Source: ANME-2 cluster archaeon (GTDB lineage: Archaea; Halobacteriota; Methanosarcinia; Methanosarcinales; Methanocomedenaceae). Taken from it: a stretch of DNA of 64,000 nucleotides. Numbering within the stretch: position 1 is the first letter of the stretch; the number at the start of each line of letters is the position of its first letter. Both the position numbers and the translations under genes were made by a program. Location of the stretch: assembly GCA_019429385.1 (NCBI GenBank), contig JAHYIS010000001.1:1-64000 (forward strand), given 5' to 3'. The notes under the pieces are model-generated. The model saw only the letters and a list, made by a program, of their open reading frames with translations, searched no databases and was not told where the DNA came from. Positions 1 through 6,745 of the stretch are shown here, in pieces.

Positions 1-3000
1 CAAGAGCTAGGCCATAGAGAGCATTGCTCTTCACCCGATAAATTGTTCCATCCGGAAGATGCCGCACCAGAAGCAGATTTCCTTGAATGTTAGTACCTTT
101 CTTATTGTACTTCATGGTGTATCCAAAGTTCGTTTTCTCACCAGTCTCAGGCCACAGGAAATGACCTCCACCAGTTGTGAAACCTAAGCTTGGATCGTAG
201 ATCACTAGCACGTCTTCGCCCGAACCAGTGTAGTAGCCTCCGTCTACAGTGACCTGCACGGAGTATGTATTGACCTCTACTTCATCGAATTCACAGGTAA
301 TTATTTTGGTAGCATCGTATTCTGTTCCGTCCACATTCCCTGTGCATGTTGATATTGGACTTACACTTGGGCCAGGGCCAACTGGCACAAGACTCATTGA
401 GACTTCTGAGAAGCTGATATCACCTGGGAGTGGAGTCTGAAGAACATCTAAAATGTTATCTGGCAGGGCTTCGGTTACATCTACTTTTAGAGAGAAAGCC
501 CCGGAAATCCCTCCCGGAGAAGCAACTTGAATTGCAACTGAATTTTCACTATTCAAGGCACATGCAGCGTCTTCAGGCTCAACAATGATAGTAGTATATT
601 CTTCACTATTGTCCACTTCATCTGTTACTATGAACGTGAGTTCATAGTTGCCAGCATCGACCTGTGCCTGTCCCTCCAGTATCCAGGTACATGTCACAGA
701 AGCACCATCAATTTCACAACTCTCTGGGTTTTGACTCAGATCAGCAGGAAGGTTTGGTTGTGAAGATCCTCCATCCTTTGTCCAACTCGTTGAAAGTGAA
801 AGGGACGATGAGTCAATGTCAGTTACTGAAACCGTGATGGGAGTTATTCCATCGCTATACTGCACGGTTTGCGAATCTATATCAACGGAGATAACTGGCG
901 GATCATTTACCGGATTAATATCGATGGTTACCAAAGCAGAATCGCATTCTCCATCTATATCGCAGATCTCATAGGTGAAGCTGTCAATACCGAAATAATT
1001 CTCGTTTGGATTATAGGCAATAGTGCCATCACCATTATTCACTAAAGTACCCTGTGAAGGATCGGAAATAACTGTAGTGGTGGAAGGATCGAGATTACCA
1101 TCCACATCATTGTCATTATCTGCCACGTCGATTGTGATCCCTGTATCCTCATCAGTATTAGAAGTGTCATCTTCTGCAACTGGTGGTTGATTTGCTGATG
1201 GTATCCTGGTTAATCCAACATGCAGATCAAATACTGGCGGAGGTATGCTGACAACTATACTATCTGCAGGATAATATCCATCCGATTCAACATGCACACG
1301 ATAAGATCCTTCCAAAACGTCCCATTGATACATTCCATCCACACCTGTAATTTGTGGATTTGTATCAGGCTGCATTATTGCATTCGGGAGAACATTTGTC
1401 GGCACATTTACCCAGTCACCCGCACCATCAGACCATTGCAACCAAACCGTTGCACCAGCTATACGATCTCCTGTAATGATGTCATAGATATATCCTGCTG
1501 GATCGATGTAGATATTAAAGCTAACAGTTGATTGACTACAGCCATAAATTGTATAAGTTATTGTAGCTGTGCCATGTCTTGGATAAAATGGTGCTGCAGT
1601 GTATGTCCACTCGGTTGGACCTCCTGTCATGCTTCCTGTAATGTCAGAACCACCGTCATTTATGTGAATCCTTATATCTACACCAGTTGCAGTATCACAA
1701 CTGTTATATGAATACGTTATTGGATTTTGCCAGTAAACTGAAGGTGTAGTTCCACCGTTGTTAGGTTCAACACTTACATCAGGTGGAAGAGTTGAACCTG
1801 TTACTCTTGTCTGAGCATTTGCATCATTATCGTCGTACCTGACTTCAAGAGTCGAAGTATCTATTCTTGCATTGTTTTGAATAACAGTTTCAACAGCTGT
1901 ATTATCATCAATTCTAACTGTCACTGTCCTATAATCGTGACCAAGTGGGGCAACAGTTCCAATATTCCAAATAACTTTCCTAGTGATTGGATCATAGGTG
2001 CCTCCATTTGATGCTGAAATAAACTCTAACTCTTCTGGTAATGTGTCTTCAAGCACAACGTTTTGAGCTTGTGTATCACCGAAGTTATGATAGTACAAAT
2101 TATACGTCATTGAACTACCATGATCCTTACTTGCCGGAGCCTGTTTGGAGAGATACATGTTGGTACCTGCAAATTGCGGGTACTTAAACTGGATTGCAAG
2201 ACCAGGATTAATTACACGTTCGTTGTATGAATATTGTAGTCCCTGTCCATTAGCGCTTTCAATACCAACAGTAGCGGAGGCACCGTTATCCCAACTATTA
2301 ACTTCGAAATTAACATCTTGGTACTGGAATATTATATTATTGGTACCTTCATAGAGGATTGCTTCAAAAGTTATTCCAGATGGCGAACTAGAGTAATGAT
2401 AATTATCATTCCACTGAACAACAAATTTTCTATTTGGAGCTTCACCAATAGTCTGATAATAAATTGCATCTGCTCCTATCCAATCCCAGGTAACAATATC
2501 ATCCCAGAATGGTGCTATGAAGTTATGAGGACTACTGCTTCCGATAGGTTGATTCGTCCATTGACTTGTCCCGCCACTTGCAAGGGTTAAACCGTTATTG
2601 GTTATGCTGAGCTGACTGTAGTCAGTGCCATAATAATTAAAGAAGAAACCTACCGGGATGTTATTAACATAGCAGTCATCACAATTTGTAATTATCTTTG
2701 TACCTGTTGATGCTATATCTATCCAATCGTAATTGGGACCGCCAACTGAGTTACTGTCTTTGTAGATGTAGCCGAAGTGATCGGGACCACCTGTGCGACC
2801 ACCGATTCGAACTTCAAAGTCTGGACTGGTTTCAGCATTTCCTCCGGCACTGATCCAGGGTCCTGTCGCATCGTTTGAATCCCTTGCTCTCGCTTGCCAG
2901 TGGTACTGCCCGTCAGCCAGACCTGTACAGGTTGCAGAGGCTCGGCTTCCAGAAGCTACTGCAGGATCTGATATGCATGTAGGAGTGTCAGTGAAAGCTG

Positions 3001-4633
3001 TTCCAAGAGGTCTAACTTCTACCTCTAGTTGGACATCGTCATTATCAGGATCAGAAACCACACCATCAAATAAAACCGTGTTTTCATCTGTGATTCCACC
3101 AAGAGGTATTTCAGTTGCGCCCACGGAGTCCCACTGAATAAGAGAAGTAGGCTGATTAGGAGGATTATTAGTGACTATGAAGTCTGGATCACTTTCCAGA
3201 TTTTCACCTGCACTGACCCAGGGTCCTGTGGCACCATAAACATCTTTTACTCTTGCCTGCCAGTGGTATTGTCCTGTAGGTAAGTCCGAACATGTCACAT
3301 AGGCCGTGTTTACAGGAACTACTGCTGGACCTGAGATGCAACTGGGATTATTTTCGAAAGCTGTTCCAACAGCTTTTATTTCAACTTCCAACTGAAGATC
3401 AGGTTCAATTACACCAACGGTTGAACGAGAACCAATACCCAAACTGTCAACCGATGCCTTCAAAACAACATTTCTTTCGTTTGTTATTCCGCCAAATGGA
3501 ATTTCCGTTATACCATCAGAATTGAATTGTTCAAAGAACCATGGTTCTTCAGGAGAATAGCTAATAAAGTCCATTCCATGTCCTTTGAATACATTAGATA
3601 TTATTTCGCCATTAAGGGTTCCGTCATGTATGTTCTCGTTATCATCATCCACTAAAAGCATGTAGTAATGCATCTGTTCAAATGAAACTGGTTGTGAAAA
3701 AATCAAAGTTTCAAATATTAATCGATCAGTTATGTCATGACTCAATTCTTGGCGAATGTCCCAGAGGGTACTGGAAAGTATTTTTGAATTCTCATATTTA
3801 TCACCAGTATCATTCCAAAGTTCCATATCAAAGTGTTCTGATAAATCTCTTGATGTACCTCCCATTCGAGAATCGCCATCGTCATTAATCCCTTCATTCA
3901 TGCTTACGGCAAAATAATCTGCAATCGCCTCTCCTAATGCCGCTTCATTAGGATCACTAATGCGTAGGGTATCATGATAGATATTATTAATTACAGCATG
4001 GGTATATTCGTGAAATATTATATCACTCATCCTAGCATATTCACCAGCTTGAAGATGAATTGTTTGGCTACCAAATGTTACTCCACCTTGATATCCACTA
4101 CCTAAATTATCTAAAATACTTATTTCTACAGGTATCATCTCATATCCGAAAGAATTGAAATATTTATGTGCTACAGTTGCATGATAAAATACATTTATTG
4201 CATCTCCTGCGTCCCAATCTATATCATATGTAAATTCGCCACGTTGATCCCCATAATTATGGTCAATTTCAGGGCCAGCAACTACGTTAATATGCTCACC
4301 CATCAAGTTAGCGAATAAATACACTTCAGCTTCAGGATCTAAAAATGAATCATATCCACTTGTTTCAACCCAACCTGTATCATAATGACCTTGACTATTC
4401 GTTTGTACACGTTTCATTAAATCATTTTTACTCTCTAGATCCCAATCCATTATAGATACATACATATCACTGATAGGGCGCGATTCAGGAGTATCAGTTG
4501 GACTTTTAAGCCAAATATCGCCAGTTACATCTCCAGTTATTTTTATTTGTTCAGCCATTCCTATATCTACAGCTGTAATTATGAATATGACTGCAATCAT
4601 TGCCAGCATCCATTGTCTCATCCCACATTTCAT
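1..4633 (-). CDS. Large secreted multidomain zinc metalloprotease, C-terminal end outside the window
   Basis: An open frame on the minus strand runs from an ATG at 4633 past base 1, more than 1540 residues without a stop. The N-terminus has a hydrophobic signal/anchor (MLAMIAVIFIITAV). A zinc-protease motif HEYTH (3998-4012) is followed about 25 residues later by GEAIADYFA, the third-ligand Glu pattern of thermolysin-like gluzincins. Then come two copies of a fibronectin-like unit (both containing EIPxGGIT and GQYHWQAR), a beta-sandwich stretch (GFFFNYYGTDY), a DUF11-like domain (LEDTLPEELEFISASNGG), a carboxypeptidase-regulatory-like stretch and a cadherin-type Ig repeat (NQPPVAEDD). GGAGGTGA precedes the ATG, and the ATG overlaps the stop of the upstream short ORF. 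Likely an exported surface or extracellular protease; its substrate cannot be read from sequence. Confidence 0.85.
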   Translation of the reverse strand, partial: MKCGMRQWMLAMIAVIFIITAVDIGMAEQIKITGDVTGDIWLKSPTDTPESRPISDMYVSIMDWDLESKNDLMKRVQTNSQGHYDTGWVETSGYDSFLDPEAEVYLFANLMGEHINVVAGPEIDHNYGDQRGEFTYDIDWDAGDAINVFYHATVAHKYFNSFGYEMIPVEISILDNLGSGYQGGVTFGSQTIHLQAGEYARMSDIIFHEYTHAVINNIYHDTLRISDPNEAALGEAIADYFAVSMNEGINDDGDSRMGGTSRDLSEHFDMELWNDTGDKYENSKILSSTLWDIRQELSHDITDRLIFETLIFSQPVSFEQMHYYMLLVDDDNENIHDGTLNGEIISNVFKGHGMDFISYSPEEPWFFEQFNSDGITEIPFGGITNERNVVLKASVDSLGIGSRSTVGVIEPDLQLEVEIKAVGTAFENNPSCISGPAVVPVNTAYVTCSDLPTGQYHWQARVKDVYGATGPWVSAGENLESDPDFIVTNNPPNQPTSLIQWDSVGATEIPLGGITDENTVLFDGVVSDPDNDDVQLEVEVRPLGTAFTDTPTCISDPAVASGSRASATCTGLADGQYHWQARARDSNDATGPWISAGGNAETSPDFEVRIGGRTGGPDHFGYIYKDSNSVGGPNYDWIDIASTGTKIITNCDDCYVNNIPVGFFFNYYGTDYSQLSITNNGLTLASGGTSQWTNQPIGSSSPHNFIAPFWDDIVTWDWIGADAIYYQTIGEAPNRKFVVQWNDNYHYSSSPSGITFEAILYEGTNNIIFQYQDVNFEVNSWDNGASATVGIESANGQGLQYSYNERVINPGLAIQFKYPQFAGTNMYLSKQAPASKDHGSSMTYNLYYHNFGDTQAQNVVLEDTLPEELEFISASNGGTYDPITRKVIWNIGTVAPLGHDYRTVTVRIDDNTAVETVIQNNARIDTSTLEVRYDDNDANAQTRVTGSTLPPDVSVEPNNGGTTPSVYWQNPITYSYNSCDTATGVDIRIHINDGGSDITGSMTGGPTEWTYTAAPFYPRHGTATITYTIYGCSQSTVSFNIYIDPAGYIYDIITGDRIAGATVWLQWSDGAGDWVNVPTNVLPNAIMQPDTNPQITGVDGMYQWDVLEGSYRVHVESDGYYPADSIVVSIPPPVFDLHVGLTRIPSANQPPVAEDDTSNTDEDTGITIDVADNDNDVDGNLDPSTTTVISDPSQGTLVNNGDGTIAYNPNENYFGIDSFTYEICDIDGECDSALVTIDINPVNDPPVISVDIDSQTVQYSDGITPITVSVTDIDSSSLSLSTSWTKDGGSSQPNLPADLSQNPESCEIDGASVTCTWILEGQAQVDAGNYELTFIVTDEVDNSEEYTTIIVEPEDAACALNSENSVAIQVASPGGISGAFSLKVDVTEALPDNILDVLQTPLPGDISFSEVSMSLVPVGPGPSVSPISTCTGNVDGTEYDATKIITCEFDEVEVNTYSVQVTVDGGYYTGSGEDVLVIYDPSLGFTTGGGHFLWPETGEKTNFGYTMKYNKKGTNIQGNLLLVRHLPDGTIYRVKSNALYGLAL

Positions 4634-4842
4634 AAACTCACCTCCATCTGCTCACTCATAAAAACCGCGCCGCCATCCACACTCAGTACCGCCGCGCCCG
4701 CTGTTCTTGTACAACCACATTCCTGCAACATCAGCGGCAGAGGGCGAGTTATACTACCCCCTGTGTTTTTTGTAAAAATATCCATAATGCATTTACGCCT
4801 TGCGGGAATAACGTTTACGTTATAATTCTGTTTGCTTTTCAT
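4630..4842 (-). CDS. Short ORF translationally coupled to the secreted protease
   Basis: 70 codons, starting MKSKQ with GGAGG seven bases upstream. Its TGA overlaps the ATG of the protease (ATGA), so the two are probably translationally coupled. It resembles the short ORF at 6011-6229: both begin MK(S/N)KQ, have an IPA(R/K) stretch near residue 12, and carry the pattern GxCTxxAGAAxLxVDGxAV near the end. No known family is recognised. It could be a small protein in its own right, a leader peptide, or a degenerate N-terminal module. The paired conservation and the good ribosome binding site favour translation. Confidence 0.55.
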   Translation of the reverse strand: MKSKQNYNVNVIPARRKCIMDIFTKNTGGSITRPLPLMLQECGCTRTAGAAVLSVDGGAVFMSEQMEVSL

Positions 4843-4870
4843 TTATGTTTCCTCCTATTGGTTCTATTTC

Positions 4871-6007
4871 TCATGCCACATATTCCATAAATCCTTTCGA
4901 TGTGTACGAAACAGGTTTCCCATCTATGCATCCATTGACCACGTAGGTCCCGGTCATTTCCCATATTACCAGATATTTGTTAACTCCAATCCATATTGGA
5001 AGCGGGGTGACGTCTTCGGTACTAAAGCTAATAACCATGCTGTTCTCACCATCACTGGCAGTGAGGACTGTTACCCATGGGAATGAATTGTTCTGGAGTA
5101 TAGGTATTTGAGGTAGTATGGTCATATATTCGTGCTGGATCTGTATCTCCCCATCCTCGAATCCCGCAATTATCTTTTTATTCTTCCATATATTCAGGAC
5201 CGCCCCTCTTGATTTGTTATGTCCATTGTTGGTAACGTTCCCAAAGCAAAATGCATATTTACCCACATCATTTCCATCCAGGTGGTTCCTGCTCTCGCTC
5301 GCCTGTCCCCAGTCCCATCCGATATCGTCCTGCCACAGCCAGTAGCCCCAATTATGATCATGGTAACCTCTTGTGTTTTCCAGAGTGTATGTCTGTTCCA
5401 GCTCCGTTCCTTTCCTGATGGTAAGTGTACCATCTACCTTCATCTTAGGTGAGGCAACCAGCCAGTTGATCACCCGGTCCTGTCCATACTGTTCATAAGG
5501 TGCAACAAAAAGCGGGGCCGGCTCGGTAAATGGTTTGAACAGGGCATCAAAAACCGTCTGGCGATCAGCAGATTCGACATGTACATGGTATCCTTCATCT
5601 GTCAGCGTGACCGTACTGCTGTTGATTCGAAGATCGGGCATTTCATTTGAATATTCCGCCAGCAACATTGGGTAGGGATCTACGGTCATATTTGAACCAC
5701 CCGGTGTGGAATAGCTTAATACAACAACAGCTGTTCCGTTTAAAGGATTGTATAGATCATATATATTCCCGCATAATCTCAATGTAGTCATGAATGAAAG
5801 GTCCTGTTCTTCATCGATCACATTGAAGTAGTGCCATTCGTTATACATCATGATTCCCGGATCATCGGCCGCCGGCGGGTGGAAGGAATCGATCTCTGTC
5901 AGTTCATTGATCAAGCTGCCCTGTCCCTTTGCATAAACTGCATTCGAAGCCGCTGAGAACAGCAGCAATGCAGCAACGATTGTAATAATTATTGATCTTG
6001 TCCGCAT
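4871..6007 (-). CDS. Secreted AttH/CrtC-like lipocalin-fold protein
   Basis: 378 residues with a clear signal peptide (IIITIVAALLLFSAASNAVYA). The central motif YHDHNWGYW and an early WHYFN resemble the conserved motifs of the CrtC/AttH-like family (hydroxyneurosporene synthase and related lipocalin-like proteins). Archaeal members are usually exported and of unknown substrate. The start at 6007 lies three bases after the stop of the upstream short ORF (6011-6229), whose last codons supply the GAGGTG ribosome binding site. Binding or hydration of a hydrophobic ligand is the family expectation; the actual role is unknown. Confidence 0.7.
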   Translation of the reverse strand: MRTRSIIITIVAALLLFSAASNAVYAKGQGSLINELTEIDSFHPPAADDPGIMMYNEWHYFNVIDEEQDLSFMTTLRLCGNIYDLYNPLNGTAVVVLSYSTPGGSNMTVDPYPMLLAEYSNEMPDLRINSSTVTLTDEGYHVHVESADRQTVFDALFKPFTEPAPLFVAPYEQYGQDRVINWLVASPKMKVDGTLTIRKGTELEQTYTLENTRGYHDHNWGYWLWQDDIGWDWGQASESRNHLDGNDVGKYAFCFGNVTNNGHNKSRGAVLNIWKNKKIIAGFEDGEIQIQHEYMTILPQIPILQNNSFPWVTVLTASDGENSMVISFSTEDVTPLPIWIGVNKYLVIWEMTGTYVVNGCIDGKPVSYTSKGFMEYVA

Positions 6008-6010
6008 AAC

Positions 6011-6229
6011 CTACACCTCATCTGTTATTTTATTCAGTAAACACATTCTGTTAGTGATTGCCTTCTGTTGGACCGCACTGCCATCCACCCACAGCGCCGC
6101 TGCGCCCGCCGCTGCCGTACAAACGCCAGCCTTCAGCATCGACATCCAGCGGTGAATTATGCTATTCTCGCTTCTTTTTACATTTTTTGCAGGAATATAC
6201 TTGACATTACCACCCTGCTTATTTTTCAT
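6011..6229 (-). CDS. Short ORF coupled to the AttH-like secreted protein
   Basis: Starts MKNKQ at 6229 (an in-frame ATG at 6241 gives four more residues). It ends just before the AttH-like gene and resembles the 70-codon ORF at 4630-4842: MKxKQ start, IPA(K/R) near residue 12, and CTAAAGAAALWVDGSAV against CTRTAGAAVLSVDGGAV. At DNA level the stretch encoding this motif is also visibly alike. Function unknown. That the same short ORF precedes two unrelated secreted proteins suggests a role in their expression or export; this is inference. Confidence 0.5.
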   Translation of the reverse strand: MKNKQGGNVKYIPAKNVKRSENSIIHRWMSMLKAGVCTAAAGAAALWVDGSAVQQKAITNRMCLLNKITDEV

Positions 6230-6241
6230 CTTGCAATCCAC

Positions 6242-6745
6242 CCATGGAATTCCAATTATGAAATTGAGTAAATACCGAAATCACCCTGATGATTTTGTTC
6301 AAGATATTTTCTGGATATTTGGTTATTCATCAAAAATCATGACTTATTAATCTTTTGATGTTTCTTTAATATTTTTATACAAATATATTCATAATTTTAT
6401 ATACCCGCGATAAGCGACCAATAACAAAGGAAGGCACAATCACAAAAATATGCCCAAAGGTTCTCATGTTGGAAAAAAAAGCACTTGATTCAAGGAAAAT
6501 CTGTATCCACTTCAAATCTAAGGATAATTTGAAAATTATTAGACCGGATTAACAGGATCGACAAAATGAGTCACTTGCGATATTTCAGCAAATGCTAGAA
6601 GATGGTTTCTGGCTTGCCCCGAACACAGCAGTAGAGTTCGAAAAGACATTGTTCGAATTGTGAAAACTCGTAACGTTATTCCCCCAATTATCACAGGCGC
6701 CACAAAAGACAATATCAACAATATTGCATTCGAAATTGTTTCACA
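6242..6745. other. Intergenic region without a recognised gene
   Basis: About 500 bases between the short ORF and purB, AT-rich, with several A/T-rich promoter-like stretches around 6355-6410. The only long frame is a 60-codon one on the minus strand with no ribosome binding site and no recognisable family. The stretch near 6540-6600 is richer in GC and could be eroded coding DNA, but I cannot identify it. Confidence 0.5.

Follow-up and report, generated by a model that had tools for sequence, protein, structure and literature searches.

Two similar short open reading frames (ORFs) on the minus strand of the window, that is, the 64,000 nucleotides of an ANME-2 cluster archaeon analysed here, each stand directly before the gene of a secreted protein. 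The two secreted proteins are unrelated, which raises the question of what is being conserved in front of them: a small protein, a regulatory element, or the reading of a short frame ahead of another gene. Along this strand the order is a putative promoter/5' UTR block, copy 2 (W2), the AttH-like gene, copy 1 (W1) and the gene of a very large secreted protein (Table 1). The two copies can be aligned end to end, with 45% identity once aligned and an in-frame gap of 7-8 codons, and have in common MKxKQ, IPA(R/K) and a CT..AGAAxLxVDGxAV block; the 2.4 Mb genome has no further copy, and a single-sequence search of it pairs the two at E = 9e-4. This likeness is not due to chance, since a profile built from the two copies matches the leaders of relatives at E values down to 1e-38. 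The original prediction had described two similar short ORFs before unrelated secreted genes, each overlapping or ending within three bases of the next start and each supplying the ribosome binding site of the next gene, and all of this is confirmed; the end at 6241 given there for copy 2 corresponds to an upstream GTG.

Table 1. Features of the leader locus within the window.
Feature	Position	Strand	Description
Leader ORF copy 1 (W1)	4630..4842	-	70 aa; ATG start; inside operon; own Shine-Dalgarno sequence (SD) AGGAGG
Leader ORF copy 2 (W2)	6011..6229	-	72 aa + stop; ATG start; at operon start; profile E 1e-32 to 1e-41
Copy 1 junction	4631..4645	-	GGAGGTGA SD within leader; ATGA stop/start overlap
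Copy 2 junction	6008..6018	-	GAGGTG overlapping stop; TAG, 3 nt, then ATG of next gene (6007)
Putative promoter + 5' UTR block of copy 2	6230..6403	-	AT-rich TATA-like stretches; core CAATTTCATAATTGGAATT (6248-6266)
Secreted AttH-like protein	4871..6007	-	378 aa; signal peptide; GYHDHNWG motif
Very large secreted protein	1..4633	-	at least 1544 aa, runs off the window; DUF11, Big_9/cadherin repeats

Both downstream proteins of the window begin, by inspection, with a signal peptide. The very large one contains a metallopeptidase-like region (HEYTH...GEAIADYFA), a Pfam search of this 'metalloprotease' matching no peptidase model, and the label AttH-like is based on the GYHDHNWG motif alone, the protein having no match in Pfam, NCBIfam or the PDB. 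Using the profile, we searched the genomes of the family, those of the order and named genomes. Copies were found at 12 places in 5 of 17 family genomes, the own genome included (10 further places in 4 of the 16 others), with one copy in another Methanosarcinales family (L021) and a further copy, L050, in a named genome of metagenome origin filed as 'bacterium'; in the scan of named genomes most copies came from uncultured Methanosarcinales. About 13 copies are informative, and their source genomes are fragmented metagenome assemblies. Weak order-wide matches (E of 1e-3 to 1e-2) were rejected, none of those inspected having a leader-like ORF at the junction. The leader is accessory, since near-complete genomes of the same genus are without it in the profile search. 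The search of relatives proposed with the original prediction has thus yielded further copies, in which the junction is kept and the secreted gene coupled to the leader differs from copy to copy.

Wherever the downstream DNA is readable, the copy leads into a protein whose N-terminus indicates export or into another coupled short ORF (L009, L021). The downstream products comprise NosD/beta-helix, LamG-Amidase-PA14-cadherin, BACON and PKD/HYR proteins, the AttH-like and metalloprotease-cadherin ones, and two versions of a small lipoprotein-like gene; by position in the genomes, the leader is found before at least six unrelated downstream families. Two arrangements are more elaborate. At L021 (1808-1890, reverse-complement coordinates) a 24-aa ATGA-coupled ORF comes next after the leader, and a PKD/HYR surface protein starts a few nucleotides on. 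At L053 (2247-2381) a second short ORF (44 aa, ...SDSGGADYVRVQAEGKA) stands after the leader and is ATGA-coupled to the next ORF, forming a chain of coupled short ORFs. The AttH-like gene itself is informative on what the leader belongs to. Its orthologues are 78-81% identical and have the same leader in genome G005 and a broken one in G003, and its diverged paralogues (39-43% identity) with readable upstream DNA (L092, L094) have none; the leader is therefore a part of the cassette rather than a trait of the protein family. The G003 leader (L014) is truncated, ending about 60 nt upstream, and the AttH-like gene is intact, which indicates that the lead-in is not indispensable. In the dead copy L013, leader and first downstream gene are both broken.

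The original prediction had missed about 200 bp of DNA that usually travel along with the short ORF. In most copies the DNA homology comprises some 200 bp of putative promoter/5' UTR and the ORF, at roughly 67-86% identity each, and the block of copy 2 shares 77% identity with the G003 cassette. We infer that the block upstream of the leader acts as a promoter. In L011 the promoter part is cut short, and in W1 and L015, which lie inside operons, the block is missing with ORF and junction retained: the 200 bp upstream of W1 show background identity to the other copies and its ORF 49-63%, most pairs that involve the ORFs of W1 or L015 being at 54-63% against a background near 40%. The ORF is thus conserved on its own. 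A promoter half without leader, apparently a relic, occurs at L075 (1500-1590), before what by inspection is an apparent PIN-type toxin-antitoxin pair.

The downstream limit of the unit is the junction, where homology ends, identity between leaders dropping to about 40% directly past the stop, except where the downstream genes are themselves related. In copy 1 the stop (4632-4630) and the start of the next gene (4633-4631) share the ATGA, and this overlap is found at 10 of the 12 junctions examined (W1, L007, L008, L009, L011, L012, L015, L016, L050 and L021), the remaining two (W2 and L006) having TAG, 3 nt and ATG; the 12 are not fully independent, many copies being of recent common ancestry. 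The sequence after the ATGA differs between copies, and in several cases so does the sequence before it. For comparison, a -4 overlap occurs in none of the 22 same-strand pairs of window ORFs of at least 100 aa. A second-cistron SD inside the leader is clear at some junctions only. In copy 1 the duplex is strong (-15.2 kcal/mol) and matched by 0.5% of shuffles, so that W1, together with L015, provides the clear cases (p 0.005); GAGGTG serves as SD in W2 (-9.5 kcal/mol), L006, L007 and L009, and the SD is weak in L008, L011 and L012 and absent in L050. The conserved C-terminal Q..EV of the leader corresponds to CAGnnnGAGGTG, the SD of the following gene. Occlusion of the downstream SD, relieved by the ribosomes of the leader, was considered and rejected, as the downstream start regions are no more structured than flank-shuffled controls. 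The signal peptides after W1, L009 and L015 begin alike, with M...M(K/R/G)(R/Q)(W/S)M(L/I) (window positions 4576-4633), hinting that the cassette may extend into the signal peptide that follows it.

A second line of evidence is the reading frame. Frame 0 is free of stops in 9 of the 10 tabulated copies, the other two forward frames having 4-9 stops each (6 each in copy 2). In a neutral simulation along the tree joining the 11 open copies, with the column consensus as starting sequence, 28.6 stops were expected (minimum 8 in 1000 runs) and none was observed, and about 1.5 of the 11 copies were expected to be open where all 11 are. As the broken copies, L014 (truncated) and L013 (frameshifted), were left out of the simulation, the fair count is 11 open frames among 13 full-length copies. 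Constraint on the amino acids is weak: dN/dS is mostly 0.4-0.8, with changes near-even over the three codon positions, the fast-evolving AttH-like gene next door having 0.37-0.48. Amino-acid identity is 0.48 against 0.35 in the stop-free neutral simulation, an excess in part explained by lower nucleotide divergence, which indicates that some protein-level constraint remains. Protein-level constraint, on which the original prediction had been made to depend, is thus present as a protected frame and weak in the amino acids. Our reading is that the leader would be selected for being translated, and its exact product only weakly.

Taken with the junctions, these observations make it moderately probable that the small ORF is a portable translated leader cistron, which would matter more for being read than for the exact sequence of its protein. 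Ribosomes would translate the leader, starting under the cassette's own promoter/UTR where this is present, would end at the junction and would reinitiate there on the secreted gene; the leader would in this way set the expression of the secreted gene whatever that gene's own 5' sequence. Of the original prediction, the translational lead-in to unrelated exported proteins is borne out by the repeated copies and the kept coupling junction, whereas the protein-specific roles offered with it (chaperone, signal to the export machinery or regulatory peptide) find little support, given the weak constraint, a hydrophobicity below that of signal peptides and the lack of a predicted fold.

A protein role is unlikely, though the most probable of the alternatives: the leader would encode a small protein that acts either in trans or on the neighbouring product, such as a secreted peptide or an export helper associated with the membrane. 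The purifying selection that remains (dN/dS below 1 and identity above neutral), the near-invariant Leu and Cys, the constant vicinity of exported proteins and the retention of the ORF without its promoter in W1 and L015 are all consistent with it. However, its distribution is patchy down to absence from near-complete genomes of the genus, and a genome may hold several slightly different copies, all placed before other genes and none alone. The polypeptide is not suggestive either, as its hydrophobic stretch is rather weak (KD19 of 1.0-2.1, versus 2.3-2.7 for the signal peptides of the neighbours), no credible Pfam or NCBIfam match places it in a known family, and its AlphaFold model, with one low-confidence helix at 24-46 and a mean pLDDT of 50, is uninformative.

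The genomic neighbourhoods bear on how the copies arose. The purB gene or its 3' end adjoins W2, L053, L013, L050 and L055, and PEBP sequences adjoin several copies. Directly after the leader/AttH cassette of G005 lies an additional purB 3' fragment (L055, 1841-2293), suggesting a tandem duplication around purB. At L050 (2828-3037) a chimeric ORF begins as a PEBP (YbhB-like) gene, continues in frame into the final codons of a leader and is ATGA-coupled to a NosD-type gene of at least 1222 aa; it is an apparent product of recombination, which swapped the leader body for the PEBP gene start and kept the leader end and the ATGA. No other observation hints as clearly that the coupled end is more important than the body of the leader. 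A transposon or virus origin was rejected, as we found neither terminal inverted repeats nor flanking repeats fitting the cassette, and no leader match in the viral contigs and plasmids searched; a recent horizontal transfer of the AttH cassette was rejected as well, the adjoining purB (near 83%) being about as similar as the cassette (80-84%). Duplication and homologous recombination, partly at the purB/PEBP neighbourhood, are the simplest route by which the cassette would have spread before secreted genes.

Considerations of origin also raise the possibility, which we regard as rather improbable, that the leader is a decaying relic, namely a duplicate of the beginning of a gene for a secreted beta-helix protein (with signal peptide and VDDSGGADYxxIQAAV). 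Two copies are broken, the amino acids are weakly constrained, and the leader C-terminus in L015 and L009 resembles the NosD-type starts of the genes downstream of L007 and L050, with p <= 0.003 against shuffled leader ends for segments that were picked by eye and compared after being seen. Open frames are nevertheless far above the neutral expectation, and copies in two families retain frame and junction. As a lead, the leader may derive from the start of NosD-type proteins, and such an origin may hold even if the present role is coupling.

The nature of the downstream genes brings to mind a role of the nascent chain. It is conceivable, as a speculative proposal, that the leader serves in cis as a checkpoint of export, the nascent chain taking the polysome to the membrane or sensing the availability of the translocon. 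If so, surface proteins that are unrelated to one another would be made only at times and places that permit their export, which would be a counterpart of SecM-type regulation in archaea, on the side of the substrate. That it is a nascent-chain sensor proper, like SecM, MifM and VemP, with export or membrane insertion of the leader controlling translation of the secreted gene, we regard as quite improbable. In favour of such a sensor, the N-terminal half of the leader is positive, a moderately hydrophobic helix comes after it, and the leader stands directly before exported proteins. Leader and arrest peptides share a short upstream ORF, the theme of export and a patchy distribution (PMC7897499, PMC10987492), but the known arrest peptides precede components of the protein localization machinery (PMC7897499, PMC10987492), and the genes following our leader encode substrates of export. 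Further, the C-terminus of the leader is variable in sequence and length, with no conserved arrest sequence, the part that is conserved being accounted for by the SD, and the hydrophobicity stays under signal-peptide level. Finally, a conserved regulatory element in the DNA or RNA (an operator or a 5' UTR riboswitch) with an incidental ORF is very improbable: the UTR core CAATTTCAnAATTnGAATT is almost invariant and common to 10 copies, one of them from another family, yet W1 and L015 keep the ORF without it, the frame is protected, and a conserved RNA structure is not supported (covariation term of +0.63, one compensatory pair). The core may act in addition, as part of a shared promoter; as a genome-wide regulon it was rejected, its other matches, apart from the promoter-only L075, being chance-level or unrelated repeats.

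The portable leader cistron can be compared with known systems. In bicistronic design, one promoter and a first SD drive a short first cistron, which contains the second SD and overlaps by its stop the start of an interchangeable downstream gene. The leader would resemble a natural version of this arrangement; there the leader cistron is synthetic and coupling is used on purpose (PMC5995908, PMC6302717), whereas ours, known from its sequence, is natural, 60-104 aa long, diverged, usually provided with its own putative promoter and tied to secreted proteins. Termination-reinitiation has been demonstrated for overlapping gene pairs in archaea (Huber et al. 2019, PMC6728339; PMC10666635), and ATGA/TGATG coupling of archaeal and bacterial genes shows the same stop/start overlap of co-directed genes with an SD near the junction. 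Such pairs, however, are ordinary genes, often of one complex, while here a homologous short first cistron is reused before unrelated exported proteins. Attenuation leader peptides likewise are short translated ORFs in a 5' leader, as ours would be, but we found neither a regulatory codon run nor alternative RNA hairpins, and the stop codon of our leader directly overlaps the next start.

Discussions of translational coupling usually concern ordinary neighbouring genes, in many cases those of one complex. If our reading is correct, a homologous leader placed before many unrelated surface proteins would constitute a natural modular expression cassette in archaea, and selection on short ORFs could act on their translation instead of on their product. 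It would also explain how these Methanosarcinales bring surface proteins that are new or recombined under a single control.
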